Source: Glycine soja
Lineage: Eukaryota > Streptophyta > Magnoliopsida > Fabales > Fabaceae
Direction: 5' to 3'
NCBI RefSeq assembly: GCF_004193775.1
Contig: NC_041016.1
Span: 37,597,334 to 37,661,333 of the forward strand
Length of the DNA stretch: 64,000 nucleotides
Part shown: positions 16,931 to 53,788 of the stretch, piece after piece
Numbering within the stretch: position 1 is the stretch's first letter
Layout of the letters: the number at the start of each line of letters is the position of its first letter
The notes under the pieces: model-generated
The model's database searches: none
Told to the model about the DNA's origin: nothing
What the model saw: the letters and a program-made list of their open reading frames with translations, nothing else
Translations under genes and position numbers: made by a program

Positions 16931-17237
16931 GTAATTGATTACCAGAAGGCAGTAATCGATTACCAGTAGCCAACATTCTTTTCAAACTAATTTACAAAGC
17001 TGTAATCGATTACCATAATCATGTAATTGATTACCAATGTTTTAAAACGTTAGATTTCAAATTTCAAGAGTCATAACATGTGATAACACTTTTTCAAGTC
17101 ATTTCAAACTTGTGTAATCGATTACACAATACTTGTAATCGATTACTAGTGTTTCTAAACGTTGGTTTTCAAATTTAAACATGAAGAGTCACATCTGTTG
17201 ATGTGTAATCGATTACACTACAATGGTAATCGATTAC
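16931..17237. promoter_or_regulatory. Palindrome-pair cluster in LTR A
   Basis: Eight copies of GTAATCGATTAC or one-base variants start at 16931/16952, 17002/17023, 17114/17135 and 17205/17226. All four pairs have exactly 21 bp start-to-start spacing. The cluster lies 190-500 bases upstream of the LTR TATA box at 17427-17434, the expected place for enhancer sites. Confidence 0.8.
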
Positions 17238-17426
17238 CAGTGACTTATTTTGAAAAATACATTACCAAAATTCACAATTCTTAAAGTGACTTGTTTCTGA
17301 AGATTTTTTCAAAAGTTACAACTTTTAAAGTGACTAGTTTTCAAAAGAGTCACAACTTTTAAAAAGTGACTAGTTTTGAAGAAATTGCCAAGAGTCATAA
17401 ACTTTTAACTTGAGTCATCAAATGAC

Positions 17427-17434
17427 TATAAATA
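17427..17434 (+). promoter_or_regulatory. TATA box of LTR A
   Basis: TATAAATA followed by TGTGACC; the same TATATGTGAC context occurs in B's LTRs (near 18807 and 39235). Transcription would start near 17460, placing both hairpin arrays in the R-U5 part of the RNA. Confidence 0.65.
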
Positions 17435-17585
17435 TGTGACCATGGCATGAATTTTATAGTGAGACAACTTTCAGATTTCTTTCATTCATTCAAAGCATTA
17501 TACTAAGAGTTTTTGTTCCAAACTTTCTTTATTCAAGAAAAGTTCATTGGCCAAAAACTTGTGCTATTCTTCTTCTTCATTCCTT

Positions 17586-17807
17586 CTCTCTCTTGCCAGA
17601 AGCATTCAAAGGACTAACCGCCTGAGAATTCTTTTGATTCTTCCTTCTCCCTCTTGCCAAAAGATTCAAAGGACTAATTGCCTGAGAATTCTTTTGATTC
17701 TTCCTCTTCCCTTTAAACAAAATATTTCAAAGGACTAACCTTCTGAGATATCTTTTGTTTCCCCTTACAAAGATTCAAGGGACTAACCGCCTAAGAATTC
17801 TTTGTCT
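17586..17807 (+). repeat. Type I hairpin array in copia R-U5
   Basis: Four tandem units of about 60 bases, each containing TTCAAAGGACTAACCGCCT or a near match. In the second unit, CAAAAGA and AATTC-type arms upstream pair with GAATTCTTTTG downstream. In G the corresponding units (49345-49615, other strand) reach arms of 12 paired bases, with the GGACTAAC/GCCTGA loop core kept. Confidence 0.7.
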
Positions 17808-17810
17808 TAA

Positions 17811-17958
17811 CACATTGGAGGGTACATCCTTTGTGGTACAAGAGAGGGTACATCTCTTGTGGATCAGTTCAAGTGGAGGGTACATCCACTTGGTTGTTCA
17901 AAGAGAACAAGGGAGGGTACATCCCTTGTAGATCTTTGCTTGTAAAGGATTTTACAAG
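17811..17958 (+). repeat. Type II hairpin array with invariant loop and covarying stems
   Basis: Four consecutive hairpins (17811-17835, 17839-17859, 17870-17892, 17908-17928) share the loop GGGTACAT. Their stems differ: CAAGAGA/TCTCTTG, CAAGTGGA/TCCACTTG and CAAGGGA/TCCCTTG pair fully, while the first has two mismatches. A fifth stem, CTTGTAAA with TTTACAAG, follows at 17939-17958 and is kept in LTRs B and G. Confidence 0.85.
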
Positions 17959-18307
17959 GTTATTGGAAATCCCAAGAACAGTGGGTTGCTTGGGGACTGG
18001 ACGTAGGCACGGGTTGTGGCCAAACCAGTATAAATCTTGTGTTTGTCTTCTTCTTCCCTACACTCTTTACTTTTCCGTTGTGTACTTTTATTTTTGCTTT
18101 ATTTTTGTCTAATTTATTGTTTTTGTTTTTTACTTCCTCAAAACTTAGTAGTAAAGCCTAATTCAATCTAGTAATATTAAGAAGGATAATTTTTAATTAG
18201 TCAAGACACATTAATAATTAATTCAACCCCCCCTTCTTAATTATTTCGAGGCTACTTGATCCAACAAATAGGAATATCATTATTGGTTTTCAAAATAGGA
18301 ATATCAT

Positions 18308-19400
18308 TGTAGACAAAGGATCAAGCTGATGTTTTGATGATGCCAAAGGATTACATGTTTCTCAAAGTTTTATTCAAGACAAAGAAATCAAAGATATTCA
18401 AGATGGATGATCAAGACAGTCTCTAGAGTCTTAGGAAGATTACATTAAATAGGAAGGGTATTCCAATTGAAGTAGCAAAAGGTTTGGCCAAGAAATTTAA
18501 GTTAAAAAATGTCTTTTTCAAGAGATTTACTCTCTGGTAATCGATTACCAGAGGATGTAATCGATTACCAGTGACCAAAACTGATTTACAACAGCTATTA
18601 AAATTTGAATTCAAAATTTGCATTGTGTAATCGATTACACATATTTGGTAATCGATTACCAGCAGTTACTGAACGTTTTTAATTCAAATTTTAAAGCTTG
18701 TAATCGATTACACACATACTGTAATCGATTACCAGAGGAGATTTTTAGAAAATATTCTCAATTGTCGCATCTTTTCATTTGGTTCTTAAATGGCTATCAA
18801 AGGCCTAAATATATGTGACTTGAGACACGAATTTGCTAAGAGTTTTTTAGAACAAAAAGGTCTTATCCTCTTAAAAAGCAAAATCGTTTTATCCTCTTAA
18901 AATTCCTTGGCCAAAACACTTGTGATTCAATAAGGAATTATTTGAGTGCTCAAATTGTTCAGTCTATCTCTTTCAAGAGAGATTTATTCTTCTCTTCTTC
19001 TTTATTCTGAAAAGGGATTAAGAGACCGAGGGTCTCTTGTTGTGAAAGAATTCTAAACACAAAGGAAGGATTGTCCTTGTGTGTTTAGAACTTGTAAAAG
19101 GAATTTACAAGACAGTGGAACTCTCAAGCTGGTTGCTTGGGGACTGGATGTAGGCACAAGGGTGTGGCCGAACCAGTATAAATCTGAGTTTGCACTTTCT
19201 CTTCCCTTAAACTCCTTCATTTATTATTGTTTTATATTCATATTCAAATTGTTCTATTTGAATCAACATTTAAGAAATTCATTATTAAGGGAATTAATAA
19301 CTTGAATAGAAAGTTAAATAGAATTTTTAATTGGGGAAATAATTTGTAATATCTTAATTCAACCCCCCTTCTTAAGATATCTGAGGCCACTTGTCCAACA
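18308..19400 (+). repeat. 5' LTR of element B
   Basis: 1,093 bp, TGTAGACAAAGG to CTTGTCCAACA. It holds three palindrome pairs (18537/18557, 18627/18648, 18700/18721), a TATA-like tract near 18803, and near its end the stem CTTGTAAA/TTTACAAG. A longer near-perfect hairpin lies around 19052-19088 (AAACACAAAGGA against TCCTTGTGTGTTT). Confidence 0.95.
18537..18732. promoter_or_regulatory. Palindrome-pair cluster in 5' LTR of B
   Basis: Six exact GTAATCGATTAC copies in three pairs, spaced 20, 21 and 21 bp. The cluster ends about 70 bases before the TATA-like tract. In the 3' LTR the same positions hold two pairs and a single leftover copy. Confidence 0.8.
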
Positions 19401-19402
19401 AG

Positions 19403-19414
19403 TGGTATCAGAGC
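19403..19414 (+). other. Primer binding site of element B
   Basis: TGGTATCAGAGC starts two bases after the 5' LTR. It is complementary to the 3' end of plant initiator methionine tRNA, the usual first-strand primer of Ty1-copia elements. Confidence 0.93.
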
Positions 19415-19450
19415 TTCATTCTTGTATAAAGTTTAGAAGCTTCAAGAATT

Positions 19451-24417: not shown

Positions 24418-24573
24418 GTAATCGATTACATGAATACTATAATCGATTACACTAGAACAGATGGCCTGTAATCGATTACAGTCTTCATGTAATCGATTAC
24501 CAGTAGTCTGCCTCCCACTGTAATCGATTACCATTACTTGTAATCGATTACAATGCGTCCTGGTCTATAAATA
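24418..24573 (+). promoter_or_regulatory. Internal promoter-like block before env-like ORF of B
   Basis: Six palindrome copies start at 24418, 24439, 24468, 24489, 24520 and 24540. Within-pair spacing is 21, 21 and 20 bp; gaps between pairs are 29 and 31 bp, about three turns. TATAAATA follows at 24566-24573, 15 bases after the last copy, and the ATG of the third ORF is at 24755. The arrangement copies the LTR promoter in miniature. H has the same arrangement on the other strand at 52072-52206. Promoter function is inferred. Confidence 0.6.
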
Positions 24574-25853
24574 CCACGTTTTTCAGAAACCCCTGCGCAG
24601 CCTCTTCCCCCTTGCGATGTTCCTCCATTCCCAAACCTTCAAACCTTCCTATCTTACTCATTTCTTCATCAAATCGACTCCCGTAACTTGCAATCTTCTT
24701 CTTTTTCAATTTTCTTTTGATTTCACCGATTGAAATCTGCAAAAACTCCATCATATGGCAGAATCATCAAAGAAACGTAAGGGTTCATCCGCCTCCGCTT
24801 TGGCTTCAAGAGCTCATCGTTCCGGAGCCACCAGCGCATCCACAACACCAATTCCACCCTCCTTATCCTCTTCCACATTGTTTTCTTCCGAAGAACAGCA
24901 GAAACGGTATTCAAATCTTTTCTCATCTCGTTCCATTATCGACCCTAAGTTCATTGATATGGAATTCTTTTCTGCTGAAACCTTTGATTGCATTCAAGCA
25001 TTTCAGAATTTAGGTCTCATACCTTTCATGTCATTACAATTGCCTGTTTATCCTGAATTGGTTAAAGCCTTTTATTGCAATCTTGAAATTCAGGACAACA
25101 CTTTGATTTCTGAGGTTTTTGGGATAAAAATGGTCATTGACCAATCCCTTTTCCATGACTTAACCCAATTGTCTAGTGACGGTGTACCATTTGAAGGTAC
25201 ACTGAATGACGATTGGAAATTTGATTTCTCTGCACAGGATGCCCGCCAGTTGGTTTGCACAAACCATGCAGATATTGTGGCGTCCCCAAAATAATGATTG
25301 GTTTAATAGTAATGATTTAAATAACAAACCATGGTAATTTTTTTTTCTTCTTTTTCTTTTTCATTTCTTTCTCTTTTCACAATTATTAGGTTCAGAAGGA
25401 AAATCCTCACTATAGAGTCCTGAATGGCCAGTTCACAACTCTATTCGGAGTCATTTCTTTCTTACCACTCGTAATCTCTAAACTATTTTGTTGTTTCAAA
25501 AGGAAGAGTATACCAGCCATTACTTTAGGTCGTCACGTGAAAATAATAAAATAAAATACGGTCGGTAAACTCTTTTGTAAATAAAGTTTGCTAATGCTTT
25601 CTTTTCAAATAACAAGGTTAAACATAAGTACATTCATCATTTAATAGCTGTCCAAAATATAGGAGTTTTACAAAATACATAGTGTCATCCAGAGCAAAGG
25701 TGTCAACAGTGGTGGCTTCAGCCACATGTATACAATCATCAAATTCCTATACAATAGGTCTACCCGTACAAAAACAAAAGAGTAAACCTAACAGTCACTC
25801 CTAGATACACCCACCCTCAAAAAGTATATAAAACTAGTCCATAGAACTGCCTG

Positions 25854-26285
25854 CTATGATGAAGAGCCTCCACTGATCGCCATCTCTTCAGGGCCACTAT
25901 CCTCCGTAGAGTCTGCCTCGGATGCCGACATGACGTCCTCGGGGGAATCCACCTCAGGGAGTGGGTCCTTATCACCCTCTAGAAAGTCAAGAGCATCCAC
26001 AGCAGGCTCAGAAGGTAGCTCCTCGAAATCCTCCTCAGGGTCTTCCTCGGATGACGTTACCTCAATCACTTGGACTGGCTCCACTAGACGGTATGGGGTA
26101 GGCGTGGGTAGTGTCCACTCCATAGTACGCTGAAGCGTGCGCGTGGGTTCATCTGGATGCACCAATGAAGTAGCCGTAAATCGAATCGTACCCCGAAATC
26201 GGCACCTCGTGTTGCCTTCGAGGGTCTCCCAAGCTCCCTCTAGGCACTCCATCTCCACTCGATCATGGATTAGCTGCGCCGCCAT
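25854..26285 (-). CDS. Acidic reading frame inside chromovirus LTR (left copy)
   Basis: A 143-codon frame from ATG at 26285, reading MAAQLIHDRVEMECLEGAW. The N-terminal half (about residues 1-75) is mixed and could fold. The C-terminal half is very rich in Glu, Asp, Ser and Pro (EEDPEEDFEELP, DSTEDSGPEE). It matches no family I recognise. It is in the element's sense orientation, near the 3' side of the LTR, and the palindrome array lies just 5' of it (26412-26802). The solo LTR copy at 52834-53268 is also open; the copy at 34473-34906 is frame-shifted. Whether it is translated or is a chance open frame is unresolved. Confidence 0.4.
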   Translation of the reverse strand: MAAQLIHDRVEMECLEGAWETLEGNTRCRFRGTIRFTATSLVHPDEPTRTLQRTMEWTLPTPTPYRLVEPVQVIEVTSSEEDPEEDFEELPSEPAVDALDFLEGDKDPLPEVDSPEDVMSASEADSTEDSGPEEMAISGGSSS

Positions 26286-26411
26286 CACGATCTACAAGAA
26301 AGAAAAGAAAGGGGTAGACTCTTTCACGAGAATCTAACTACGCCGCAACACAATGCGTCTCATAACCACTACATGCAAGTAAAAGGGGTATCTTTAGGCT
26401 TTTCATCTCTG

Positions 26412-26802
26412 GTAATCGATTACACAGCCTTGGTAATCGATTACCATAGGCTAAACTCGAGTTACACAGCCTCAGGACATGAAATCTGTAAAAATGCACT
26501 GTGTAATCGATTACACATAACTGGTAATCGAATACCAGTGGCATGTTCCTCTGTGTAATCGATTACACAGCCTGGTAATCGATTACCAGAGGCCTCCACA
26601 ACATGCTGCCTTCATTTCTAAGCCTGGTAATCGATTACACCCCTTGGTAATCGATTACCAGAAGCCTTCCTAGCTTCCTGACCTCGTTTTCAAGCCTGGT
26701 AATCGATTACACCCCTTGGTAATCGATTACCAGAGACCATCTTAGTCTCCAGTCTTCATTTTTAAGCCTTGTAATCGATTACACCCCTTGGTAATCGATT
26801 AC
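26412..26802. promoter_or_regulatory. Palindrome array with 72-bp period in LTR of C
   Basis: Pairs start at 26412/26433, 26503/26524, 26555/26575, 26627/26647, 26699/26719 and 26771/26791. Within-pair spacing is 21, 21, 20, 20, 20 and 20 bp. The last four pairs repeat every 72 bases exactly. The second copy of a pair is usually inside the 18-bp palindrome CTGGTAATCGATTACCAG or its TTGG variant. One copy (26524) is degenerate. Confidence 0.85.
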
Positions 26803-29160
26803 CAGAGGCCATATCCCGTATATCAATCAAAGTTCACAGCTGGCCAGCCACCACACAAGCCTCCTTGCTTTGTGGTCTTAGTTCCTTTAATCTGTTGACT
26901 GCTAGGAGCTCGCCTTCTTAGGTACATCACATGTTCTCACTGACTGACTATGCCCGGGTTGGGTCGGGATTGGTCAAGCTTGGTTTTGGGCAATAGCACC
27001 CCACCTGACGTCCCCAAGGTCTCCTGACCCCCGCGACATATCTCCAGGTACCACTCTGTGGTCAACAATAAAAGAAGGAAGTCTCACCCTTCCACACTTC
27101 CTCATTTCAAGCTTGTGGGATTATGGGGTACCCATCACATGTGGTACTAGGTGGCGGTCGGGCGATGGTGCAAAACGATTCTCCACATCCACAAATCACA
27201 TATAACCCACCATCCCCTGTTGCCCACCTCCAACTGAGCTCACGTACTCCCACGTAGCCCTTATCCTCGTTCCTCTCAACGCCGGGTCCCCATCAATCCT
27301 CCCAAGCTTCCACAACATCCAAGTAATTCCACATTCAATCATCACAAACTAACACAGCCAAGAAAACAGGGCAAAGGCAGAAAACTCTGCCCAAAACACA
27401 AACCAACATCACAACTTTTCACATTCAATTACCCAGTAACATGCTGTTCGTTCGAGTTCGTTAACCGTTGGATCGACTCAAAAATTTTACTGGAAGTCTC
27501 TAGTACATAAGTCTACATTTTGACTTTCTAGAAAATGTCCAGAACCCCACATGTACTACCCTTTTCACAACCAGCCATACACAAGCATTTTTCTGCACTT
27601 ATACAAAATTCTGCTGCACATTCCAACAGCAAAATTCTGTATAAAGTGCAGATTTCGAAAACCACTCTTTCCCTCATCCAATTTTGCCCAAATTGAATCC
27701 TACAAGTCCCAAATCATGTACCAATCATGTCTAAACCAAGGACAAGCTTCAGACCAAAGCAACACAAAATCTAGGTATCCAAAACCCCTCAATTTAATGG
27801 ATTTTCAAGGTTTGAGAAGTGAAATTGAGAATGGGGTAAATTTGGAGCAAACTCTCACCTCACACAAGTCTATAACATCAATTTAAACTTGCTCAAACTG
27901 GATTTACACCTAAAATTCCACCGAATCAAAATTTGACTCCTCAACACCAAATTTTACCCTAGAAATGTCTCTTTGTTCACTTTGGTCATTTGTTTTTCTC
28001 TCTTGCACAGCCCAAGCTTCCTCATAAGTCCTAAATGACATTTCAAACTAGGATTAACTCACTTTAACCTCCAAATACCACTAAATCCAGATTTGGCCTT
28101 CCAACTCTAAAAAAAACTCACTCTTTTCCCACTCATAACACCATATTCTCACTTTCTAACCCTAGGTTAACTCTACCCTTCATCCCTAGCAGTTTTCCAT
28201 AAGCAATTTCAGCACACCAACATCAAAAGCATCATCATAAAAACCCTAAAACTGAATGGGTAAGCTTAACTCACTCAAACATAACAAGTTTAGCATGCTT
28301 TCGTCAAATCTCTTCACAAATAACTATCACAAAGCATTAACCAAGCAAAACTGCCCATCATATCTCCCAAAGCCCCATACCCACGAAAATCAAGTGAGAA
28401 AGAAGTCTACCCAAACATGAAATTTCGAGGTCCCACATGTAGAGATGCGCTTCACGACTCCGAAAATGCCTTCCTTTCGCGATTTGGAGCAGAAATGGGC
28501 ACCAAAGGTTGGAGTTTTGTTGGAGTTTCAATGGAGGATGAAGAAGAAAGAAAAAGCAACGTGAGGGTGAGGGAGAAAGCTTCTGAAATGTGGGCTGAGT
28601 GAGGAGAGAGAGAGTTGCTTTTTGGTTTAAAAAGGCTTTTTCTCTTTTCTATTCTTTTATTTTAAGCTATGCCACATGTCTCCATTTGAGTGGAGCAAAA
28701 GGGCCCACTTTTTCTCTTGATGTGACTCATGCTCTGCCACATGAAGAGAAAAATCTGACCTTTTGAAATGCCAAAATCCTGCCTCGGTTTGCGTGCCATT
28801 TCTCTGGTTCCAATCCCTTGCTCTTCTCTGCGCCTGTCGGGGCCAGTTTTCGAATGTAGGCAATATATATATCAAAACGCTCAGAATAAAACCCCGAGCG
28901 TGGTTCAGAGGTTGGTTTTGTTAAATTTTAAGTCGCACGCAAAACAATGATTTTTAGACTAATTAATTGAGAATTAACCTATAACCTTCCAGTTATGGAT
29001 TTCTCTTCCTTAATTAGCCTAACCCGCATATCTTGCCCCCACTATTCCTACTTCTACGAGGAACATATATGCATATACACTGAATAATACTTATATATAT
29101 AATCATTCAAAATGCACCGTTTACAAAAATTCTGGGTAGAATTTCCAGGATGTCACAATA

Positions 29161-29174
29161 CTCCCACCCTTTTA
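29161..29174 (-). other. Polypurine tract of element C
   Basis: On the minus strand this reads as an A/G-only stretch, AAAAGGGTGGGAG, ending three bases before the 3' LTR. It is the expected start site of plus-strand DNA synthesis. Confidence 0.8.
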
Positions 29175-29196
29175 GGAATTTCGTCCCCGAAATTAA

Positions 29197-29604
29197 CTAC
29201 TCTATGAACAAACTTGGGTACAATTCTCTCATTCTATCCTCCAACTCCCATGTAGAATCACCCTCATCGGTTCCCCACTGCACCTTCACCAATGCGATCT
29301 CCTTTCCTCTTAGTGACTTCATCCTTCGATCAATGATCTTCTGAGGTTGTGCTTTATAGGTGAGGTTATCCTTCACTTGTACCTCGTCCACTGCAAGTAT
29401 ATGTGATGGATCTGGGTTGTACCGTCTCAGTTGAGAGACATGAAACACAGGATACAGATTCGATAAACTCGGAGGTAAGGCGATATGATAAGCTACAGGC
29501 CCAACCTTCTTCAAAATCTGATACGGACCTAGATACTTGGGCGTCAACTTCCTAGATTTGAGAGCTCTTCCAACTCCGGTTACATGAGAAACCTTCAAAA
29601 ACAC
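29197..29604 (-). pseudogene. Integrase C-terminus and chromodomain of C
   Basis: The frame begins in the integrase C-terminal GPY/F-type module (LGPYQILKKVGPVAYHIALP, then PVFHVSQLRRY). It ends with a chromodomain-like segment (VQWGTDEGDSTWELEDRMRELYP) that steers integration to chromatin in chromoviruses. It is in the same frame as the integrase core upstream but is cut off by a stop at about 29686-29688. Confidence 0.88.
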
Positions 29605-29688
29605 ATGTTCTCCTTCCTGAAAATCTAGTGGCTTCCTCCTTCTATCATAATAGCTCTTCTGCCTATCCTGAGATGCTTTTATCTTCTC

Positions 29689-30939
29689 TCAAATCAATTT
29701 CACTTGTTCGTTAATCTGTTGTAGCATTTTAGGTCCAAGAAGTACTGCTTCTCCATCACCATACCAACAAATAGGAGTTTTGCATTTTCGTCCATATAGA
29801 GCTTCAAAAGGAGCCATACCAATACTGGCTTGGTAGCTATTGTTGTAAGTAAATTCAATCAATGGAAAACAATCCATCCAGCTACCTTGTTGCTCTATAA
29901 TACACGCCCGAAGTAGATCTTCTAGAGTCTGGATTGTTCGTTCAGTCTGACCATCTGTTTGAGGATGATAAGCTGAACTAAGCTTCAGCTTTGTCCCCAA
30001 TGCTTCATGTAGACTTGCCCAAAATCGCGAAGTGAACCTCGGATCCCTGTCGGATACAATACTGGAAGGAATTCCATGCAACCTTACTACTTCTTTGATA
30101 TACAACTCCACTAGCTTCTCCATTCTATACTTAATATTCACTGGAATAAAATGGGCAGATTTGGTAAGTCGATCTACTATGACCCATACAGCATCATGTC
30201 CCCGACTAGTCTTAGGTAAACTAGATACAAAATCCATAGATATGCTCTCCCATTTCCATTTCGGCATTTCCAATGGCTTCAATTCTCCTGATGGTCGCTG
30301 GTGCTCAGCCTTAGCCTTTTGACATGTCAAACACCTTGCTACATATTCAGCTACATCTTTCTTCATGCCATGCCACCAAAAACTTCTTTTCAAATCTTGG
30401 TACATCTTAGTCATTCCTGGATGGAAACTAAGACGACTTTTATGCGCTTCTTCCAAGATCTTAACTTTCAAATCATCCAAAGATGGCACACATATCCTCC
30501 CCTTGAATCTAATTAACCCGGTTGTGTCCTTCTCAAACTCTACATTCTTATCCCCCATTACATCTAATACCTTGCCTTGCAAAAACGGGTCATCCTCTTG
30601 AGCCTCGCGTATGTGATCTACGAATTCATTGGTGATCTGCAATGCTCCCACAAATAAGCTCTTGGGTCGCATCTCGATTGCTAGATTCAGATCTCGGAAC
30701 TCTTCTATCAATCTCTGCTCCAAACTCATCATAGTCGCAACATGTAAGGACTTTCGACTTAGCGCATCGGCTACTACATTAGCCTTTCCGGGATGGTAGG
30801 AAAGACCAAAATCATAGTCCTTGAGGAACTCCATCCATCTTCGTTGCCTCATATTGAGTTCCTTCTGATCGAACAAGTATTTGAGACTCTTGTGATCACT
30901 GAAAACTTCAAAACGAGTACCGTATAAGTAATGCCCCAA
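29689..30939 (-). pseudogene. RNase H end and integrase core of C
   Basis: The 416-codon frame starts in RNase H ([31 protein letters not shown]). It continues with the HHCC zinc site ([20 protein letters not shown], then [11 protein letters not shown]) and the integrase core: [19 protein letters not shown] and a later Glu in the [11 protein letters not shown] region. It is displaced from the upstream RT frame by an apparent one-base deletion near 30936 and closed by the stop near 29688. Confidence 0.9.
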
Positions 30940-32906
30940 ATCTTTAAAGCAAAGACCACTGCTGCTAGTTCCAAGTCATGGGTCGGATAGTTAACTTCAT
31001 GAGGACGTAATTGACGTGAAGCATAAGCCACTACTCTTCCCTCTTGCATCAACACACACCCCAAACCTTGCCCGCTTGCATCGCAATACACTTCAAATGG
31101 TCTCTTAGGGTCGGGCAAAATTAACACTGGAGCTGTTGTCAACCGCCTCTTCAACTCTTGGAAACTTTGATCACATTTCTCATTCCAAACAAACTTCTCA
31201 TTCTTACGAGTCAACTTAGTTAGGGGCAATGCAAATTTAGAAAATCCCTCAATGAATTTTCTATAATAGCCAGCCAACCCCAAGAAGCTTCGAAATTCTG
31301 TTGGAGTTGTCGGTTGTTGCCACTCCATAACTGACTCCACCTTGTTCGGATCCACCGCAACCCCGTCTTTAGAAATCACATGCCCCAAGAACTGCACTTT
31401 CTCCAACCAAAAGTCACATTTCGACAGTTTGGCGAATAACATCCTATCCTTCAGGATATGCAACACAATCCTCAAGTGCTTCTCATGCTCCTCCTTATTC
31501 CTTAAATACACTAGGATATCATCAATGAACACAACCACGAACTGATCCAAGTAATCATGGAATATGCGATTCATATAGTCCATGAAAATAGCCGGAGCAT
31601 TAGTCACTCCAAATGGCATGACTAAATACTCGTAGTGCCCATACCGAGTCCGAAACGCAGTCTTTGGGATATCTTCCTTCTTAACTCGAATTTGATGATA
31701 CCCCGATCGCAGATCGATCTTCGAAAATACCATCGTTCCCCTCAATTGGTCAATCAAATCATCTATCCTTGGTAGAGGATATTTGTTCTTGATAGTGACC
31801 TTGTTTAACTGCCGGTAGTCTACACACATTCTCATACTTCCATCCTTCTTTTTAACCAATAAGACCGGCGCTCCCCACGGTGATGCGCTTGGACGAACAA
31901 ATTGTTTGCTCAAAAGATCCTGCACTTGTGCCTTCACCTCTGCTAGTTCTACCGGGGACATTCTATAAGGCGCGATTGACACTGGATTCGCCCCAGGCAC
32001 CAAGTCAATAATGAATTCCACTTCTCTCTCAGGTGGTAATTCATAAATGTCGTCAGGAAAAACTTTCGGAAATTCTGACACCACCGGTATACTACTAACT
32101 TCAACGTCCTCTTCCACATTCATAGAGAACAACACCATGTAAGTTCGAACATCCCCCGCTCCATCATTGGTCGCATCCCTTTTCGATGGTTCATTTGGAA
32201 CTACATCTCCACCAAACACTAGCATCTTCTCCTTGCAGTCTAGAAAGATATGGTTAGTAGATAACCAATCCATCCCCAAGATCACATCTAGATGAGCTAA
32301 AGATAGGCAAATCAAATCCGCCGTAAAAGATCGACCCTCAACAATTATAGGACACTTCAAACACACCCGAGAGGTGGTTACAGGCTCGTTAGTCGGAGTA
32401 GACACCACCATATCATATGGTAACTTCGTCGCACATAACCCCAACCTCTCCACACATGCATGAGATATGAAAGAATGCGTGGCACCCAAATCATAAAGTA
32501 CATCTAGTAGTTTATCAACAATCAAACACTTACCCCGTATCAAATCGTCGGAGGCAGCCGCTTCTGAGCCACTCATAGCAAATACCCGGGAGGGTACTTT
32601 TGGTCTTCCACCACTAGTGTTGTTGTTGCTAACATTACCACTCCTTGTGGAATTAGCGGGTCCACGATTGACGGTGTTGGAATTGGCGGTTACCGTCGGT
32701 CTCCCGGTCACCCTACATTCTCGAGCATAGTGGCCCACCTTGCCACAAACATAACAACGGTTGTCCTGTGTCTGCGGGAGCTGTGGGCAATTCCTCTTAA
32801 GATGCGGTCCCCCACACTGAAAACACTGTACCCCAGTCCCCCTTGACTGGCTCATATTGGAGGTAGCCATAGGTTGTTTCCCCTTGTTGCTAGCATACGG
32901 CTTCAT
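30849..32906 (-). pseudogene. Gag zinc knuckles, protease, RT, RNase H of C
   Basis: A 685-codon frame. Zinc knuckles [13 protein letters not shown] (residue 28) and [14 protein letters not shown] (about 52) are followed by the protease site near residue 137, reading [11 protein letters not shown]; most relatives have Ser or Thr in place of that Leu. RT follows, with [26 protein letters not shown] and the catalytic FIDDILVY near residue 465. RNase H begins at about 612 with [14 protein letters not shown]. The frame is lost at about 30936, after FALKIW, where a base appears to be missing. Confidence 0.9.
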
Positions 32907-32987
32907 CCTCTTATTACTATTTCCTCTAAAAGGATGGTTTCTCTATGGTCCTCCAACGCCTCTAGCTTGCCTCTCCTTCATCTTGTC

Positions 32988-33602: not shown

Positions 33603-33877
33603 ACCTATCCTGTAGGAAAACTATTAGTATCCAAGAAATCCTACTGAGAGAGTGTACCACACAGGCTGTGACAGTTACAACAATATCCTTCTCTCTATAC
33701 ATACATATACACACAACAATTCTACTGAATCAATCACACGTTCATGCTCAAGACAAAAGGTAGGAATACACACAATGTGTGACTTAACGTCACTCCCCGA
33801 AACCTACTTCTAAGTTTCAGAGATACACAACATTCACACAACAAGACCATAAACAGGTTCACTAGAATCCAACTTTT

Positions 33878-33889
33878 GCTCTGATACCA
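33878..33889 (-). other. Primer binding site of element C
   Basis: On the minus strand this reads TGGTATCAGAGC, complementary to initiator methionine tRNA, five bases inside the 5' LTR boundary at 33895. Confidence 0.9.
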
Positions 33890-34906: not shown

Positions 34907-35029
34907 GATCTACAAGAAAGAAAAGAAAGGGGTAGACTCTTTCACGAGAATCTAACTACGCCGCAACACAATGCGTCTCATAACCACTAGATGCAAGTAA
35001 AAGGGGTATCTTTAGGCTTTTCATCTCTG

Positions 35030-35403: not shown

Positions 35404-38400
35404 GGCCATATCCCATATATCAATCAAAGTTCACAGCTGGCCAGCCACCACACAAGCCTCCCTGCTTTGTGGTCTTAGTTCCTTTTATCTGTTGACTGCC
35501 AGGAGCTCGCCTGCTTAGGTACATCACAGGTTCTCACTGACTGACTATGCCCGGGTTGGGTCGGGATTGGTCAAGCTTGGTTTTGGGCAATAGCACCCCA
35601 CCTGACGTCCCCAAGGTCTCCTGACCCCCGCGACATATCTCCAGGTACCACTCTATGGTCAACAATAAAAGAAGGAAGTCTCACCCTTCCACACTTCCTC
35701 ATTTCAAGCTTGTGGGATTATAGGGTACCCATCACATGTGATACTAGGTGGCGGTCGGGCGATGGTGTAAAACGATTCTCCACATCCACAAATCACGTAT
35801 AACCCACCATCCCCTACTGCCCACCTCCAACTGAGCTCACGTACTCCCACGTAGCCCTTATCCTCGTTCCTCTCAACGCCGGGTCCCCATCAATCCTCCC
35901 AAGCTTCCACAACATCCAAGTAATTCCACATTCAATCATCACAAACTAACACAGCCAAGAAAATAGGGCAAAGGCAGAAAACTCTGCCCAAAACACAAAC
36001 CAACATCACAGCTTTTCACATTCAATTACCCCAGTAACATGCTCTTCGTTCCAAATCGTTAACCGTTGGATCGACTCGAAACTTTTACTGGAAGTCTCTA
36101 GTACATAAGTCTACATTTTGAAAGTTGGGATCCACTAGAAAATGTCCAGAACCCCACATGTACTACCCTTTTCACAACCAGCCATACACAAGTATTTTTC
36201 TGCACTTATACAAATTTCTGCTGCACATTCTAACAGCAAAATTCTGCATAAAGTGCAGATTTTGAAAACCACTCTTTCCCTCATCCAATTTTGCCCAAAT
36301 TGAATCCTACAAGTCCCAAATCATGTACCAATCATGTCTAAACCAAGGACAAGCTTCAGACCAAAGCAACACAAAATCTAGGTATCCAAAACCCCTCAAT
36401 TTAATGGATTTTCAAGGTTTGAGAAGTGAAATTGAGAATGGGGTAAATTTGGAGCAAACTCTCACCTCACACAAGTCTATAACATCAATTTAAACTTGCT
36501 CAAACTGGATTTACACCTAAAATTCCACCGAATCAAAATTTGACTCCTCAACACCCAATTTTACTCTAGAAATGGCTCTTTGTTCACTTTGGTCATTTGT
36601 TTTTCTCTCTTGCACAGCCCAAGCTTCCTCATAAGTCCTAAATGACATTTCAAACTAGGATTAACTCACTTTAACCTCCAAATACCACTAAATCCAGATT
36701 TGGCCTTCAAACTCTCAAAAAAACTCACTCTTTTTCCACTCATAACACCATATTCTCACTTTCTAACCCTAGGTTAACTCTACCCTTCATCCCTAGCAGT
36801 TTTCCATAAGCAATTTCAGCACACCAACATCAAAAGCATCATCATAAAAACCCTAAAACTGAATGGGTAAGCTTAACTCACTCAAACATAACAAGTTTAG
36901 CATGCTTTCGTCAAATCTCTTCACAAATAACTATCACAAAGCATTAACCAAGCAAAACTGCCCATCATATCTCCCAAAGCCCCATACCCACGAAAATCAA
37001 GTGAGAAAGAAGTCTACCCAAACATGAAATTTCGAGGTCCCACACGTAGAGATGCGCTTCACGACTCCGTAAATGCCTTCCTTTCGCGATTTGGAGCAGA
37101 AATGGGCACCAAAGGTTGGAGCTTTGTTGGAGTTTCAATAGAGGATGAAGAAGAAAGAAAAAGCAACGTGAGGGAGAGGGAGAAAGCTTCTGAAATGTGG
37201 GCTGAGTGAGGAGAGAGAGAGTTGCTTTTTGGTTTAAAAAGGCTTTTTCTCTTTTCTATTATTTTATTTTAAGCTATGCCACATGTCTCCATTTGAGTGT
37301 AGCAAAAGGGCCCACTTTTTCTCTTGACGTGACTCATGCTCTGCCACATGAAGAGAAAAATCTGACCTTTTGAAATTCCAAAATCCTGCCTCGGTTTGCG
37401 TGTCGTTTCTCTGGTTCTAATCCCTCGCGTTTCTCTGTGCCCGTCGGGGCCAGTTTTCGAAAGTAGGCAATATATATATCAAAACGCTCAAAATAAAACC
37501 CCGAGCGTGGTTTTGTTAAATTTTAAGTCGCACGCAAAATGATGATTTTTAGACTAATTAATTGAGAATGAACCTATAACCTTCCAGTTATGGATTTCTC
37601 TTCCTTAATTAACCTAACCCGCATATCTTGCCTCCACTATTCCTACTTCTACCAGGAACATATATGCATATACACTGAATAATACTTATATATATAATCA
37701 TTCAAAATGCACCGTTTACAAAAATTCCGGGTAGAATTTCCAGGATGTCACAGATATGACCGAACGCCTTCTTGCCGGTGCATTTGCTTTTGAAAGCCGC
37801 ATCCTTCATTATCTTATTGTGCAGATTTAGCTTCCACGATCTTCCAACCTTGCCCAGGTTTCTGAGGAAGATCTTGTTATCATGTGGGCCTTTCATACCA
37901 GGCGTCATTTTGACTGGGCACACTTAGTCAGATATCGCATGCATAAGGCATTGCGATTAAATGCTCCTTTGCCATATCCACACCTTGTTACTCTCTTTTT
38001 TAGCCATTTTCAAATTCCTCTTGATTCTGAACCTTATGTTCCAATCAAGAGATCTTTTTTAATTGGTGCTGCTGTGATTGCTTCTTTTGGTTACCGCAAA
38101 GAGCATGATGGCTCTTGGGTCAAAAAGGGTGCTCAACCCGCTGATGATGAAGGCAACCTACCAACTGAAGATAGTTCCTCTCTTCTTCGAAAGCTTTTGG
38201 ACAAGTTCGATGGTCTTTAGACTTTTGTTGGTGACAAGTTTGATTCCATGGAATTGCAAGTCGACATGCGGTTCGATGCCATGGAATCAAGGATCACCAA
38301 AGTTGAAGAAGATGTCTCCTTCATCCGTACTTGCTTTGATCCACCCCCACCGCCTCCATCATCCTCTTAGTTATTTGTTATTATTATGACTAAGTATTAT

Positions 38401-38754
38401 TAGTGATTAAGTATTATTAGTACTTTGTTTTATCGCCGTGTATTTGGCTTTTTGTTGCTCTAGTTCTCGTTATTTTGCACCATTAATTATATTTCTTGAC
38501 TTTTGTTTTGGTTGATTATGACAATGTATGGATTTATTTTGGTTTAATGTTTGGCTCTGTTTGGATATTGATAGTGTTGCTTAGTTCTTTTTGATGTTGC
38601 CAAAGGGGGAGAGAACTTGAGAGAGAACTTGGGTTAGAAATCAATTAAAATCATTAAAGTTAGGCATACATGCCAAAAGATAGGGGGAGTAAGGACTGTG
38701 TGAACATGCTATCATCTTGTATATAGCTTGTCTTGATTTTAGGATTGTCATCAT

Positions 38755-38768
38755 AAAAAAGGGGGAGA
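38755..38768 (+). other. Polypurine tract of element B
   Basis: AAAAAAGGGGGAGA sits one base before the 3' LTR at 38770, as expected for priming of plus-strand synthesis. Confidence 0.88.
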
Positions 38769-38769
38769 T

Positions 38770-39827
38770 TGTAGACAAAGGATCAAGCTGATGTTTTGAT
38801 GATGCCAAAGGATTACATGTTTCTCAAAGTTTTATTCAAGACAAAGAAATCAAAGATATTCAAGATGGATGATCAAGATAGTCTCTAGAGTCTTAGGAAG
38901 ATTACATTAAATAGGAAGGGAATTCCAATTGAAGTAGCAAAAGGTTTGGCCAAGAAATTTAAGTCAAAAAAAGTCTTTTTCAAGAGATTTACTCTCTGGT
39001 AATCGATTACCAAAGGATGTAATCGATTACCAGTGGCCAAAACTGATTTACAACAGCTATTAAAATTTGAATTCAAAATTTGCACTGTGTAATCGATTAC
39101 ACATATTTGGTAATTGATTACCAGCAGTTACTGAACGTTTTTAATTCAAATTTTAAAGCTTGTAATCGATTACAGAAAATATTCTCAATTGTCACATCTT
39201 TTCATTTGGTTCTTGAATGGCTATCAAAGGCCTATATATATGTGACTTGAGACACGAATTTGCTAAGAGTTTTTTAGAACAAAAAGGTCTTATCCTCTTA
39301 AAAAGTAAAATCGCTTTATCCTCTTAAAATTCCTTGGCCAAAACACTTGTGATTCAATAAGGAATTATTTGAGTGCTCAAATTGTTCAATCTATCTCTTT
39401 CAAGAGAGATTTCTTCTTCTCCTCTTCTTTATTATGAAAAGGGATTAAGAGACCGAGGGTCTCTTGTTGTGAAAGAATTTTAAACACAAAGAAAGGATTG
39501 TCCTTGTGTGTTTAGAACTTGTAAAAGGAATTTACAAGATAGTGGAACTCTCAAGCTGGTTGCTTGGGGACTGGACGTAGGCACAAGGGTGTGGCCGAAC
39601 CAGTATAAATCTGAGTTTTCACTTTCTCTTCCCTTAAAATCCTTCATTGATTATTTTTTTATATTCATATTCAAATTGTTCTATTTGAATCAACATTTAA
39701 TAAATTCATTATTAAGGGAATTAATAACTTGAATAGAAAGTTAAATAGAATATTTAATTGGGGAAATAATTTGTAATATCTTAATTCAACCCCCCTTCTT
39801 AAGATATCTGAGGCCACTTGTCCAACA
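38770..39827 (+). repeat. 3' LTR of element B
   Basis: 1,058 bp, the partner of 18308-19400, about 2.6% different by eye. A 35-36 base deletion near 39174 removes the second palindrome of the third pair. It is followed directly by the ATCAT duplication. Confidence 0.95.
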
Positions 39828-43249: not shown

Positions 43250-44874
43250 TGTAACACCCTGAAATGTTATTAATTATAAATCGATGTTTGATTGTGTTTA
43301 GCTTGTTGTTTAAATATATGTTTGACTTGAATGATTTGAGATATGAATTGAGTTAGTCATGTGTGAATTTCTTGATGTGGATGTTGAGTTATGTGGAGTT
43401 TTGTTGAGCAAAGTTGAAATTATGAGATTTTAGATTTTTGCCTAACCTAGTTCAGTAAAATCACAATCCCATATTCGTTAACCGTTGGATCATCTTCAAA
43501 TTTTGTACGAAGCTTCCTAAGACATATCTCCATAGTCTAACTGTTGGGATTTTGAAAATAACAACATTTAGCCTCTCGGTAAGCGCTAATGGCGCGCTAA
43601 GCCCAATTCCAACAGAGTGGGAAAGGCGCTAAGCGCCCAGAGATTTGCTAAGCCCAATTCCAATAGAGAGGGAATGGCACTGAGCGCCTAGAGGTACGCT
43701 AAGCATGATTTGCAGGTTATATATATGTCCTCAGTGTGAAAAACAAGATTTTTCACTCTACTCTTCTCCAAAACGCCACCTAAACCCTAAAACCTCATTT
43801 TTCATCACCCAAGACCACTGGTTCCGTTGAACCCCCACACCAAGAGGAACACTTTAATTGGAGGGGAATCCTTAGAATCCTACTCAAGGATTCGGTTGAG
43901 AAAATTTCCCAATCCTCCGTTTCAAAGCTTCTCTGAGGTAATCTTCATTCCTAAACCCTTCTCCTAGCTAGTTTGAGTTCCTCTTAGTGTCTCTTTGTGT
44001 GTTGGGTACTGTATTAGGGTGTTTTTACACTTCCTTTGAAAAACCCTAGAGAATGAGACATTGTAAAAGTTATCTTTTTATAACATTGAGGTTATTTTTG
44101 TGGCATTCACTGAACCCCGGTCACATTGGCCTGATCGGAATTTCAAAACAATGTTTCCTTTTTGTAGAATCCAAAATACCCCTCAGCCCTTTACGTTTTG
44201 ATAAGGGTATTTGACCCTGAATGTTGTCATTGACCTTGATTTCGAAATCTATATTGATTTTCCATCAATTTGACATATAGAGACTTGCGTTTAGACTGAC
44301 GAGCGTGAACGAGAGAGAGACCTTTGATTAATGCAAAGAGGAACTGACGGAGAGGTCAAGATAGGTGAGGGAAGTTTATTATAAAATGTACCGTTTTTGA
44401 TACCATAGTTTGGGTCAGGGAACCTAACTAAGGGAATACATGCCTGTCCCTGTTGCATGCTGAGTTTTTCTTTAGAAAACAATGCTTTTGACGAATGGGA
44501 TGTGATAAATCTATTGTTGATGAATAAAATAATTGTCCTTATTTGACTTGTGTTGTTTGAAGACATGTGAAGTGTGAATCTTAGGCATGAAAAAAATATA
44601 TGTATATGCGGAATGTGACTTACTGTTGATGTTGCTATTGATGACATTAATTGAAATGTGGTGATGTTGATATTTATGATGATATTGATTTGAGATGACG
44701 TTGCTAATGAAGATCATGTCAACGTGAATTGATGTTATTATTGATGATTATGTGAATATGAAATGAGATTGTTGTTGTGGTTGTTGATAACATCATTGAG
44801 ATGAGATGATGTTTATGTTGAGAATGATATTGAAATGGAATGTTGATGATGTTGGAAATACATTGAGATGTGCA

Positions 44875-45360
44875 TGTTGTATATGTTCATGGGGGGCTGT
44901 AGTGACCTTGTTGGATGTCCCTTATGTGGGAGACTAGAGTGGTTAAAGAATTTAAGCATCTCTAAGGGGAATGCTTAGGAGCTTTAATTCATCCATGGTC
45001 ATTGTACTTGATGGTGCCCATGTTTCATATGTTGGATGTTGTGTATGTTCGTAGGGGGGTGCATTGACCTTGCCGGATGTCCTTGGTGGGGGAAAATAGA
45101 GTGGTTAAAGAGTTTAAACATCTCAGAGGGGATGTTTAGGATCTTTAATTCATCCTGGTCTTTGTACTTGATGGTGCTCACGTTCATGCGTCGTATGTTG
45201 TGTATGTCCTTGGGGGGGTGCATTGACCTTGTCGGATGTTCCCGGTGGGGGAAAAATAGAGTGGTTAAAGAGTTTAAACATCTATGAGGGGTTGCTTAGG
45301 ATCTTTAATTCATCCATGGTCTTTGCACTTGATGGTGCCCATGTTTCATGCCTCATATGA
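44875..45360 (+). repeat. Three tandem 160-bp units in LTR F
   Basis: Units start near 44877, 45038 and 45198. Each has GTTGTGTATGTTC, GGGGGG, TGACCTTG, CGGATGTCC, AGAGTGGTTAAAGA, TTTAAACATCT, TTTAATTCATCC and TTGATGGTGC in order. Short open frames across them come from the repeat structure. Confidence 0.85.
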
Positions 45361-49951: not shown

Positions 49952-50192
49952 GTAATCGATTACCAAATCAGTGTAATCGATTACCAAATCAGTGTAATCG
50001 ATTACACAAAGCTTTTGTGTGAAAGGATGTGACTCTTCACATTTGAATTTGAATTTCAACGTTCAAAAGAACTGGTAATCGATTACCAAAACATTGTAAT
50101 CGATTACAGCTTTATGAAATTAATTGGAACGTTGTAAATTCAACTTGAAAAACTCTTTGGTAAACGATTACAACAATCTGGTAATCAATTAC
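49952..50192. promoter_or_regulatory. Palindrome cluster in LTR G
   Basis: A triplet at 49952, 49973 and 49994 (21 and 21 bp), a pair at 50075/50096 (21 bp), and a diverged pair at 50160/50181 (21 bp). Confidence 0.8.
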
Positions 50193-51332: not shown

Positions 51333-51660
51333 TTAGTGCTATTAGAGCAGGTCGAATTTTTGGCCAGTGAGTTGTGAGTCTGCTATGTTTTTTTGTGCGT
51401 TTTTTGGTTGCCTTGTTGAATGCTTGATGTTTGTTGTTTGTAACTGGATCTTATTCACTTGTTGTCTTTCCGTGTGTTGTAGAAATTTGATTGTTGTATT
51501 CATAACGTGTTTGGTATCCTGATGTCTACTATACCATGAGTTTCAATATCGTGTCATAAATTATCAGACTGGCCATCTGTATAATTTGTGAAGTATAATT
51601 TGATGATATGGCAAGCGATCAGACTGGCCATTAGACGTGTTTGGTATCCTGATGAATTAT
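51333..51660 (+). mobile_element. Leader of element F with scrambled filler repeats
   Basis: After the degenerate primer site the DNA reads as a non-coding leader to about 51500. Then CGTGTTTGGTATCCTGATG occurs twice (near 51508 and 51638) and ATCAGACTGGCCAT twice (near 51566 and 51619). Immediately after, the minus-strand copia H third ORF begins. This looks like a repaired break with templated filler rather than a transposon terminus. Confidence 0.5.
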
Positions 51661-52258
51661 CACACTTCATCATCAAAGAAAGCTAAGTCTACAAACTTAG
51701 GGTCGATAATGGAACGAGAAGAGAAATTAGAATTGTACCGGGTACGTTGTTCTTCTGAGGAAAACGACGTAGGAGATGATATGGAGGGAGGAATTTGAGA
51801 TGTCTACGCCTTGGATGTTCCGTGGCTTCGTGTTCCAGAGACTGCGGATGAAGTCGCAATCCCCTTTCGCTTCTTCGATGGTTCCGCCATTTGAGAGATT
51901 TATTCAAAATTTCAATCTGTTGAAATGAAAGAGGATGAAAAAAGATGAATTTTGGGCTTTATGGGACGTGATTTGGTTGAGAATTGAGGGAGAAATCAAG
52001 TTTTGAAGATTTAGGGATTTTGGGTTCGAGTTCTGCAGAAATCGCGTTCTCGCGGTTTCTGAAATTTCGAATTTATAGACACAGACGCTCTGTAATCGAT
52101 TACAAGAATGGTGTAATCGATTACGTAAGCGATTACAGGAATGTTGTAATCGATTACACTTAGTCTAAATGCTTGTAATCGATTACATGAGAAGGTAATC
52201 GATTACTAGACACTTCTTCTAAAACAATAATAAAAAAAAATTAACACTTACTAAGATG
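51661..52258 (-). pseudogene. Env-like ORF start and internal promoter block of copia H
   Basis: The minus strand carries an ATG at 51890 reading MAEPSKKRKGIATSSA, homologous to B's third ORF, but with a TAG after about 28 codons. Downstream DNA still resembles the SRSIIDPKF region before ending at the filler junction. Upstream on that strand are a TATA box (CTATAAAT, 52079-52072) and seven palindromes at 52092-52206. B has the same order, so the block belongs to the family. Confidence 0.75.
52072..52206 (-). promoter_or_regulatory. Internal promoter-like block of copia H
   Basis: Palindrome copies start at 52092, 52113, 52125 (GTAAGCGATTAC), 52146, 52175 and 52195. Spacings 52092-52113 and 52125-52146 are 21 bp; 52175-52195 is 20 bp. 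The TATA box lies 13 bases beyond the nearest copy, toward the ORF. Confidence 0.6.
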
Positions 52259-52833
52259 TGTGGCGTCCCTAAATAATGACTGGTTTAATAGTAATGATTT
52301 AAATAACAAAACCATGGGAATTTTTTTTTTCTTTTTCTTTTTCATTTCTTTCTCTTTTTCACAGTAATTAAGTTCAGAAGGAAAATCATCACTATAGAGT
52401 CCTGAATGGCCAGTTCACAACTCTATTCGAAGTCATTTCTTTCTGATCCCACATAACATTTAAAATATGTTGCTCTTTCAAAAATAAAAGTATGCCAGCC
52501 ATTACTTTAGGTCGTCACGTGAAAATAATAAAATAAAATATGGTCGGTGAACTCTCTTTCAAATAAAGTTTGTTAATGCTTTCTTTTCAAATAACAGATT
52601 AAACATAAGTACATTCATCATCTAAAGCTGTCCAAAATATGGGAGTTTTGCAAAATACATAGAGTCATCCAGAGCAAAGGTATCCAATGTAGTGGCTTCA
52701 GCCACATGTATACATTCATCAAATTCCTATACAATAGGTCTACCCATACAAAAACAAAAGAGTAAACCTAACTGTCTGTACTAGATACACCCACCCCCAA
52801 AAAGTAGATAATCCTAATGTAAGGAGCCGTCTG

Positions 52834-53268
52834 CTATGATGAAGAACCTCCACTAGTCGCTATCCCTCTGGGACCGCTCTCCTCCGTAGAGTCTGCCTCA
52901 GATGCCGACATGACGTCCTCGGGAGAATCCACCTCAGGAAGTGGGTCCTCCTCACCCTCTAGAAAGTCAAGAACATCCACAACAGGCTCAGGAGGTAGCT
53001 CCTCTGGGTCCTCCTCGGGGTCTTCCTTAGATGACGTCACCTCAATCACTTGGACTGGCTCCACTAGTAGATATGGAGTAGGTGTAGGTAATATCCACTC
53101 CACAGTGCATTGAAGCGTGCGTGCTGGTTCCTCTGGATGTACTAACGAAGTAGCCGTGAGTCGGATCGTGCCACGGAATCGGCACCTTGCATTGCCTTCG
53201 AGGGTCTCCCAAACTCCCTCTAGGAACTCCATCTCCACTCGGTCATGGATGAACTGCGCTGCCATCAT
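52834..53268 (-). CDS. Acidic reading frame in solo chromovirus LTR
   Basis: 144 codons, starting ATGATG, and open throughout. It aligns end to end with 25854-26285, with about 26 residue differences by eye, and keeps the VEPVQVIEVTSS and EDVMSASEADSTE blocks. That many replacements is near what drift alone would give, so the open state is not proof of selection. No known domain. Confidence 0.4.
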   Translation of the reverse strand: MMAAQFIHDRVEMEFLEGVWETLEGNARCRFRGTIRLTATSLVHPEEPARTLQCTVEWILPTPTPYLLVEPVQVIEVTSSKEDPEEDPEELPPEPVVDVLDFLEGEEDPLPEVDSPEDVMSASEADSTEESGPRGIATSGGSSS

Positions 53269-53393
53269 GATCTACAAGGAATAAAAGAAAGGGGTAGACT
53301 CTTTCACGAGAGATCTAACTACAGTATCAACACAAAGCGTCCCATAACCACTACATGCAATTAAAAGGTGTGCCTCAAGGCTTTTCTCCTCTG

Positions 53394-53788
53394 GTAATTG
53401 ATTACACAACATTGGTAATTGATTACCAGAGACCAAACTCGAGTTACACAGCTTCAGAACATGAAAACCTACAATATGCACTGTGTAATCGATTACACAT
53501 AACTGGTAATCGATTACCAGTGGCCTGTTACTCTATGTAATCGATTACACAGTATTGGTAATTGATTACCAGAGGCCTCCACAACATACTGTCTCCATTT
53601 CCAAGCCTGGTAATCGATTACACAGCATTGGTAATCGATTACCAAAAGCCCTCTCACGTTCCTGATCCCATTTCTAGGCCTGGTAATCGATTACACATCC
53701 TTGGTAATCGATTACCAGAGGCCATCTTAACTTCCTGTCTTCATTTTTAAGCCTTGTAATCGATTACCCACCCTTGGTAATCGATTAC
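53394..53788. promoter_or_regulatory. Palindrome array with 73-bp period in solo LTR
   Basis: Pairs start at 53394/53415, 53485/53506, 53537/53558, 53610/53631, 53683/53704 and 53756/53777, all at 21 bp. The last four repeat every 73 bases. Compared with C (20-bp pairs, 72-bp period), the extra base lies inside the pair; the gap between pairs is unchanged. Confidence 0.85.

Follow-up and report, generated by a model that had tools for sequence, protein, structure and literature searches.

Elements and paired sites in the window

The stretch of Glycine soja DNA considered here (NCBI RefSeq assembly GCF_004193775.1, contig NC_041016.1, positions 37,597,334 to 37,661,333 of the forward strand) is 64,000 nt long; it is called the window below and is numbered from its first letter. 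It contains nested and solitary pieces of long terminal repeat (LTR) retrotransposons of both the Ty1/copia and the Ty3/gypsy superfamilies, and within these lie nine arrays of a 12 bp palindrome, GTAATCGATTAC, whose copies are spaced in pairs. An original prediction, made from the letters of this stretch, had proposed that unrelated retroelements share these paired sites as a common regulatory grammar.

Taking GTAATCGATTAC as the site and counting over the whole window at three mismatch levels, 60 exact copies are found (much as predicted), together with 73 copies having at most one mismatch and 75 having at most two; no exact copy appeared in 100 dinucleotide shuffles of the window. All 73 sites with at most one mismatch lie inside 16931–53788, exactly the span first proposed, and the two further sites that have two mismatches (41788 and 60955) are isolated from the arrays. 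Adjacent sites make up 36 pairs, 24 of which are 21 bp and 12 of which are 20 bp apart, start to start; these cover 71 of the 73 sites and include one triple (49952/49973/49994), bearing out the claim that nearly every copy has a partner at one of these two distances. The two unpaired sites, at 35030 and 39162, look like former pairs from which one partner has been lost by deletion, because the sister LTR keeps an intact pair at each place (26412/26433 and 18700/18721 respectively). Within the pairs the intervening bases do differ, with 26 distinct spacers among the 36, while the spacer length of 8 or 9 bp follows by construction from the definition of a pair as sites 20–21 bp apart.

The arms GTAAT and ATTAC occur with a 2 bp centre 68 times (CG 60, TG 6, CA 2), and were not found anywhere in the window with a centre of 0, 1 or 3 bp (longer centres were not sought). 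Eight of the 13 one-mismatch variants are C-to-T or G-to-A, which is the change expected of methylated CG. As a separate observation, five of the seven arrays measured are poor in CpG away from the exact 12-mers (observed/expected ratio 0.17–0.40) but retain it inside them, even though the one-mismatch variants are mostly CG decay; outside the 12-mers it is not depleted in the array of the element called copia B below (0.72) or in the second of two arrays preceding an additional open reading frame (ORF; 0.79). The dyad symmetry of the site extends somewhat beyond the 12-mer itself: the ±1 flanking bases are complementary across the site in 49 of 73 cases (34.2 expected, p = 0.0002) and the ±2 bases in 41 of 73 (31.2 expected, p = 0.003), so that the extended preference is KGTAATCGATTACM, and at ±3 no excess was found over the same 73 sites (p = 0.71). 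Across the pair, in contrast, outer flanks are complementary in 15 of 36 cases against 14.5 expected, and inner flanks in 7 against 15.2.

Pairs are present in elements of both superfamilies, as had been proposed. The nested elements were resolved by self-comparison and domain searches. Array 1 (16931–17237, forward strand; 8 sites in 4 pairs, all at 21 bp) belongs to a solo LTR of a Sirevirus-like copia family, which lies on the forward strand at about 16736–18266, the left end being uncertain. It is followed by a copia element referred to here as copia A (18308–39827, forward strand), which has the target-site duplication ATCAT on both sides and LTRs that are 94% alike. Its 5′ LTR (18308–19400, with a primer-binding word at 19403) carries array 2 (18537–18732; 6 sites in 3 pairs, at 20, 21 and 21 bp), and its 3′ LTR (38770–39827) carries array 6 (38999–39173; 5 sites, being 2 pairs and the decayed pair at 39162). 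Array 3 (24418–24551; 6 sites in 3 pairs, at 21, 21 and 20 bp) lies inside copia A, between pol and an additional ORF in the position of an envelope gene; the start of this ORF (24755–25275, with its ATG at 24755) is interrupted by a gypsy insertion, and further pieces, interrupted by stops, lie on the other side of it (37757–38367). All these features of copia A are on the forward strand.

The inserted Ty3/gypsy element (25276–37752, reverse strand, target-site duplication GATAT) has LTRs of 3.9 kb (25276–29157 and 33895–37752), a pol region at 29200–32942 on the reverse strand, and a weak chromodomain match (PF00385, E 0.068, 13.5 bits against a cut-off of 25.1). Array 4 (26412–26802; 12 sites in 6 pairs) lies in its LTR 1, antisense to the element, and array 5 (35030–35399; 11 sites, being 5 pairs and the decayed pair at 35030) in its LTR 2. 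Array 9 (53394–53788; 12 sites in 6 pairs, all at 21 bp) lies in another LTR of this family, a solo one at 52259–56168 with the target-site duplication AGATG. No strand is assigned to these three gypsy arrays. Extra pairs in the gypsy LTRs are carried by tandem units of 72–73 bp (26555–26810, 35152–35407 and 53537–53798), and there are homologous gypsy pairs that are 20 bp apart in two of the LTRs and 21 bp apart in the third. The two remaining arrays are on the reverse strand. Array 7 (49952–50192; 7 sites in 4 pairs, including the triple) lies in the 5′ LTR of copia B, a reverse-strand element with its LTR/primer-site boundary at about 48860, for which a 3′ LTR was not found; array 8 (52092–52206; 6 sites in 3 pairs) precedes a truncated second version of the additional ORF, which starts at 51890. 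It should be borne in mind that three of the nine arrays belong to one gypsy LTR family and two to both LTRs of one element.

Two other features lie apart from the arrays. Reading frames on the forward strand at 59144–63236 match DUF7745 and a Ty3-type gag, representing a gypsy-related stretch without paired palindromes, and a tandem array with three copies of a 162 bp unit lies at 44874–45359.

Sirevirus features and probable promoter context of the copia arrays

The placing of copia A among the Sireviruses rests on structural hallmarks, of which it shows four of the five tested, in addition to a copia-type RVT_2 polymerase. The available text of Bousios et al. (2010; PMC2829016) describes for Sireviruses multiple polypurine tracts, of which the terminal one is followed by AT and then by the TG of the 3′ LTR, and inverted repeats at this junction with arms that average 28 bp. 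Copia A has three identical tracts, AGGGGGAG, within 38604–38769 on the forward strand (starts 38604, 38682 and 38760), the last of which is indeed followed by AT and then by the TG of the 3′ LTR; only two further copies of the tract occur in the window on both strands. Of the inverted repeat only a part was recovered, with 10 of 11 bp in the arm beside the tract matching positions 25–35 of the LTR. A poly-C-rich signal, CCCCCCTTCT, is present near the 3′ end of both LTRs (19363 and 39790), as judged against the description of this signal in an abstract, and a TATA-like box follows soon after the motif cluster in each. The ORF behind pol also agrees with the published description.

Such boxes are in fact found downstream, in the sense direction, of all six Sirevirus-side arrays, at distances of 189, 73, 14, 59, 130 and 14 bp for arrays 1, 2, 3, 6, 7 and 8 respectively (those of arrays 1, 3, 7 and 8 being at 17427, 24566, 49821 and 52077). 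In both promoters of the additional ORF (arrays 3 and 8, which are homologous to each other) the box stands exactly 14 bp past the last site. The chance of a TATA word at a random position is 0.013 within 14 bp, about 0.05 within 59 bp and 0.13–0.16 within 189 bp.

Comparison with published motifs

The closest published relatives of these arrays are the palindromic repeated motifs that Bousios et al. reported for 13 of 21 Sireviruses, located in the LTR ahead of the TATA box and also upstream of the envelope-position gene (PMC2829016, available text). Like them, the arrays here are palindromic, high in copy number and near-identical, they lie in the upper half of the LTR (in copia A at offsets 229–424 of the 1093 bp LTR) and upstream of the TATA box, and extra copies occur just before the envelope-position ORF (24418–24551, ahead of the ATG at 24755). 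A CGG-CCG core is usual in the published motifs, which form CpG islands, but there is a published exception to this core: Tnd-1 of tobacco has the motif ACAATCGATTGT, which has the core AATCGATT in common with the 12-mer here, and is described as having neither a conserved TATA box nor an envelope-position gene (PMC2829016). Palindrome clusters at both positions in Sireviruses are thus already known. What goes beyond this is the strict pairing, the available text of the same paper making no mention of a fixed spacing of 20–21 bp, and the presence of the arrays in a Ty3/gypsy LTR, given that the text calls the motif specific to Sireviruses as against other Ty1/copia elements.

In maize the LTR palindromes of Sireviruses are hotspots for the mapping of small RNAs, according to the part of PMC5311732 that cites Bousios 2016; the palindrome-rich regulatory region of the LTR is as seen here, although the small-RNA evidence concerns maize families only. 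As regards possible binding proteins, the site of the plant HD-Zip III factors is given in the review PMC6320839 (available text) as GTAAT(G/C)ATTAC, a pseudo-palindrome with the same GTAAT and ATTAC half-sites as the 12-mer. Its centre, however, is 1 bp, whereas the 68 intact-arm sites here have 2 bp, and as an exact candidate it was rejected, since GTAAT(G/C)ATTAC has no copies in the window. Another comparison, made by description and without any alignment of sequences, is with the Retrosat2 family (PMC3485330, available text): like the gypsy family here it has an extra ORF and LTRs longer than 3 kb, but that ORF, ORF0, is upstream of gag-pol and is stated not to have been found outside grasses, whereas the small gypsy ORF here (see below) lies inside the LTR.

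Searches of the open-licence literature for GTAATCGATTAC or TAATCGATTA as exact words gave no plant retroelement paper, though this leaves absence from print unproven. In the same literature, AATCGATT searched together with homeodomain gave nothing on plants by title, and, as far as titles and opening lines of abstracts show, no study of sharing between superfamilies or of HD-Zip with LTR was listed. Viral contigs, scanned by pattern and by protein, revealed no relatives. Swapping of LTRs between soybean retrotransposons was reportedly described by Du et al. in 2010 within related families; there too regulatory LTR sequence would move, but here it is a short block, and it is shared between superfamilies.

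A probable common block in copia and gypsy LTRs

That Ty1/copia and Ty3/gypsy LTRs are not homologous, as the original prediction assumed, holds for the LTRs as a whole but probably not at the arrays themselves, where copia A and gypsy also resemble one another, in register, in bases that do not belong to the motifs. The distance from the first pair to the second is 70 bp in copia A and likewise in the gypsy LTRs, and when the comparison is anchored in register on this spacing 31–35 of the 58 gap bases are identical (53–60%), as against 17–18 in dinucleotide shuffles; this level is reached by at most 1 of 5000 shuffles and by random 58-mers of the window at a frequency of at most 0.00015, and if shifts of up to 3 bp are allowed p is 0.0005–0.001 against pieces of the window. 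Agreement continues around the block, with 13 of 20 bases identical upstream, 7 of 9 in the spacer and 17–20 of 40 in the next 40 bp gap (p = 0.003–0.04). Among the 26 family-to-family gap comparisons made, for which p values are uncorrected, that between copia A and gypsy ranks first.

The other copia arrays present a less definite picture. The gap of the solo copia LTR is not clearly related to that of gypsy (19–22 of 58 identical, p = 0.03–0.2; p = 0.005–0.04 among the 26 comparisons), and with copia A it shares 25 of 58 bases (p = 0.01–0.02). The arrays before the additional ORF may not be fully independent of the gypsy arrays, because their gaps match gypsy at 11 of 19 bases (p = 0.0045) and at 10 of 19 (p = 0.018).

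Given that the 58 bp gap matches well above chance, what copia A and gypsy share is probably a transferred block rather than the result of convergence. The idea that unrelated LTRs had converged on a common grammar is therefore not supported for this pair, where the gypsy array looks homologous to the copia A block, and the gap comparison points instead to acquisition across superfamilies, the very case that had been set against convergence when the idea was put forward. The orientation that matches the copia A sense is antisense in gypsy. As to direction, we infer that passage from a Sirevirus to gypsy is the likelier, because this kind of motif has been published for Sireviruses and there are six Sirevirus-side arrays here.

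Conservation of the motif in the gypsy LTRs

When gypsy LTR 1 is set against the solo LTR, motif positions other than CG have changed at 1 of 120, as compared with 43 of 247 in the array gaps and 428 of 3476 in the rest of the LTR (Fisher test, 2.3e-7 for motif against gaps and 5.1e-6 for motif against the rest); CG positions have changed at 3 of 24, and if they are included the motif count becomes 4 of 144 (p = 7e-6). The comparison of LTR 2 with the solo LTR gives a similar outcome (motif 1 of 110, gaps 41 of 240), but is not independent of that with LTR 1. Between LTRs 1 and 2, which are taken to have been identical at insertion, no difference between motif and gaps was found (2 of 110 against 8 of 240, p = 0.73). 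Such a pattern is expected if selection acted while the family was active, although conversion between motif copies may be another source of such conservation.

Downstream of the array, in the sense of the element, lies a small ORF of 143 codons (25857–26285 in LTR 1, reverse strand), the start of which is 126 nt from array 4; over LTR 1 and the solo LTR the corresponding distance is 126–128 nt. Comparing it with its counterpart at 52837–53265 (also reverse strand) gives a nonsynonymous divergence (dN) of 0.08 and a synonymous divergence (dS) of 0.46, i.e. a dN/dS of about 0.18. The product is acidic-rich, the changes by codon position number 12, 10 and 39, and the copy in LTR 2 is frameshifted.

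Interpretation and alternatives

The explanation considered best, to which somewhat better than an even chance is given, is that the arrays serve Sireviruses as promoter-proximal cis-regulatory sequences, in what would be a sequence variant of the published motif, and that one block of them was transferred to a gypsy family. Each 12-mer would bind a dimer of a host protein, possibly a homeodomain protein, and two such dimers might cooperate; since 20–21 bp is two helical turns, they would stand on the same face of the DNA. Cooperation of this kind would keep the spacing while the sequence of the spacer drifted. Both the LTR promoter, for gag-pol, and a separate one serving the additional ORF would be driven by the same sites. 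A block with at least two pairs would have entered the Ty3/gypsy LTR from a Sirevirus LTR related to that of copia A, or the reverse, would have grown there by tandem duplication of 72–73 bp, and would have been kept by selection upstream of the LTR-encoded ORF, the antisense orientation being as expected of an enhancer.

The reading of the 12-mer as a dimer site, already part of the original prediction, gains from the dyad flanks, from the constraint in gypsy and from the position ahead of TATA boxes or coding regions; it loses in that the published HD-Zip III site, with its 1 bp centre, is absent. A homeodomain factor is accordingly a plausible candidate, but a lead rather than a result, because the sites have one more central base than the HD-Zip III site. 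Overall, then, the earlier interpretation is partly supported.

A number of points weigh against the explanation just given. The motif lacks the CGG-CCG core of the published Sirevirus motifs, having AATCGATT instead, and the arrays are not CpG islands: in the seven of the nine measured, CpG observed/expected is 0.72–2.24 and G+C 30–43% (judged from these figures without an island program), and the CpGs are mostly within the 12-mers. SIRE1-1, the soybean type element, is outside the 13 motif-bearing Sireviruses in the available text of PMC2829016. The more distant TATA boxes of the LTRs are weak evidence, because a TATA-like word falls within 130–189 bp of a random position with a probability of 0.09–0.16, leaving the 14 bp cases as the telling ones; the box in the copia A 5′ LTR is a variant, TAAATATATG, spotted by eye, and no canonical TATA box was found close downstream, in sense, of the gypsy arrays. 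Homology of the block appears to rest mainly on 58 bp with its flanks and the shared register, and a motif-masked BLAST search between copia and gypsy gave no match at E < 0.01 (best E 0.96; in-register copia A–gypsy match E 1.3). The LTR pair of copia A has too few changes for a test of constraint (0 of 50 motif positions against 3 of 115). Copies of the site are in any case related, so that permutation p values overstate their independence, and a plant factor for the 2 bp centre of GTAATCGATTAC is putative and unproven.

Silencing by an RNA route is a live rival to recruitment of a host factor, even if an unlikely one when taken as the whole explanation. Transcripts of the arrays would then form hairpins that feed small-RNA silencing, making the arrays hotspots of host silencing rather than activator sites, as the small-RNA hotspots in maize Sirevirus LTRs might suggest (PMC5311732, available text). 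The two arrays folded, of the nine, do give RNA structures much stronger than shuffles (array 2, from the 5′ LTR of copia A, z −11.4; array 4, from gypsy LTR 1, z −11.6), but any two copies of a palindrome pair with one another, so that strong folding is automatic. Moreover, a hairpin needs no loop of exactly 8–9 nt, the exact letters are conserved, and the flanks do not lengthen the stem that a pair would form; because they complement within the site and not across the pair, the flank pattern speaks for a protein dimer bound to double-stranded DNA more than for an RNA hairpin. Nor would a role as silencing target, which may exist beside that of activator site, by itself favour keeping the arrays. 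Separate evolution of the paired site in copia and gypsy, rewarded by one host factor, is less probable still. The additional-ORF arrays obey the 20–21 bp rule mostly without the flank consensus of the LTRs (of their 6 pairs 1 has CAG after the second site, as against 24 of the 30 others), which is what such convergence would produce, as is the failure of the masked BLAST search; against it stand the 70 bp register shared by copia A and gypsy, the identity in the gap, and the agreement of flanks and spacer.

Expansion of a palindromic minisatellite by slippage and recombination, without function, would account for the 72–73 bp tandem units that fill much of the three gypsy arrays, and also for the 21 bp units at 49952–50107 and the 33 bp unit at 52092–52157. 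It does not sit well with 26 distinct spacers of near-fixed length or with arrays placed before TATA-like boxes, and the conservation of the gypsy motif relative to neighbouring bases disfavours it further, making it very improbable. A shade less probable again is autoregulation, in which the additional ORF of the element would itself encode the protein that binds the arrays. This ORF comes immediately after arrays 3 and 8; its two halves give collinear matches to PF20167 (plant transposon protein), which stay below the cut-off, and its last piece has a sub-threshold HSBP1 match (E 0.005). Both copies have a basic SKKRKG stretch, presumably nuclear-signal-like. Nevertheless, a search of five of its pieces (all but one, of 24 codons) gave no DNA-binding domain at E ≤ 1, and Tnd-1 has a similar motif without an envelope-position ORF (PMC2829016, available text).

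Implications

Returning to host-factor arrays with a transferred block, a stronger form of this proposal is that a phased dimer-of-dimers enhancer cassette circulates between Sireviruses and Ty3/gypsy elements within a single plant genome, is read by one host factor, and came under purifying selection in gypsy after its transfer; this is put at slightly less than an even chance. The fixed spacing of the pairs lends itself to a simple test of phase, and the 12-mer offers a direct bait for the factor. If the proposal is true, control of retrotransposons would move between superfamilies as a short module, and one host factor could activate several unrelated families at once, or else be titrated by them.

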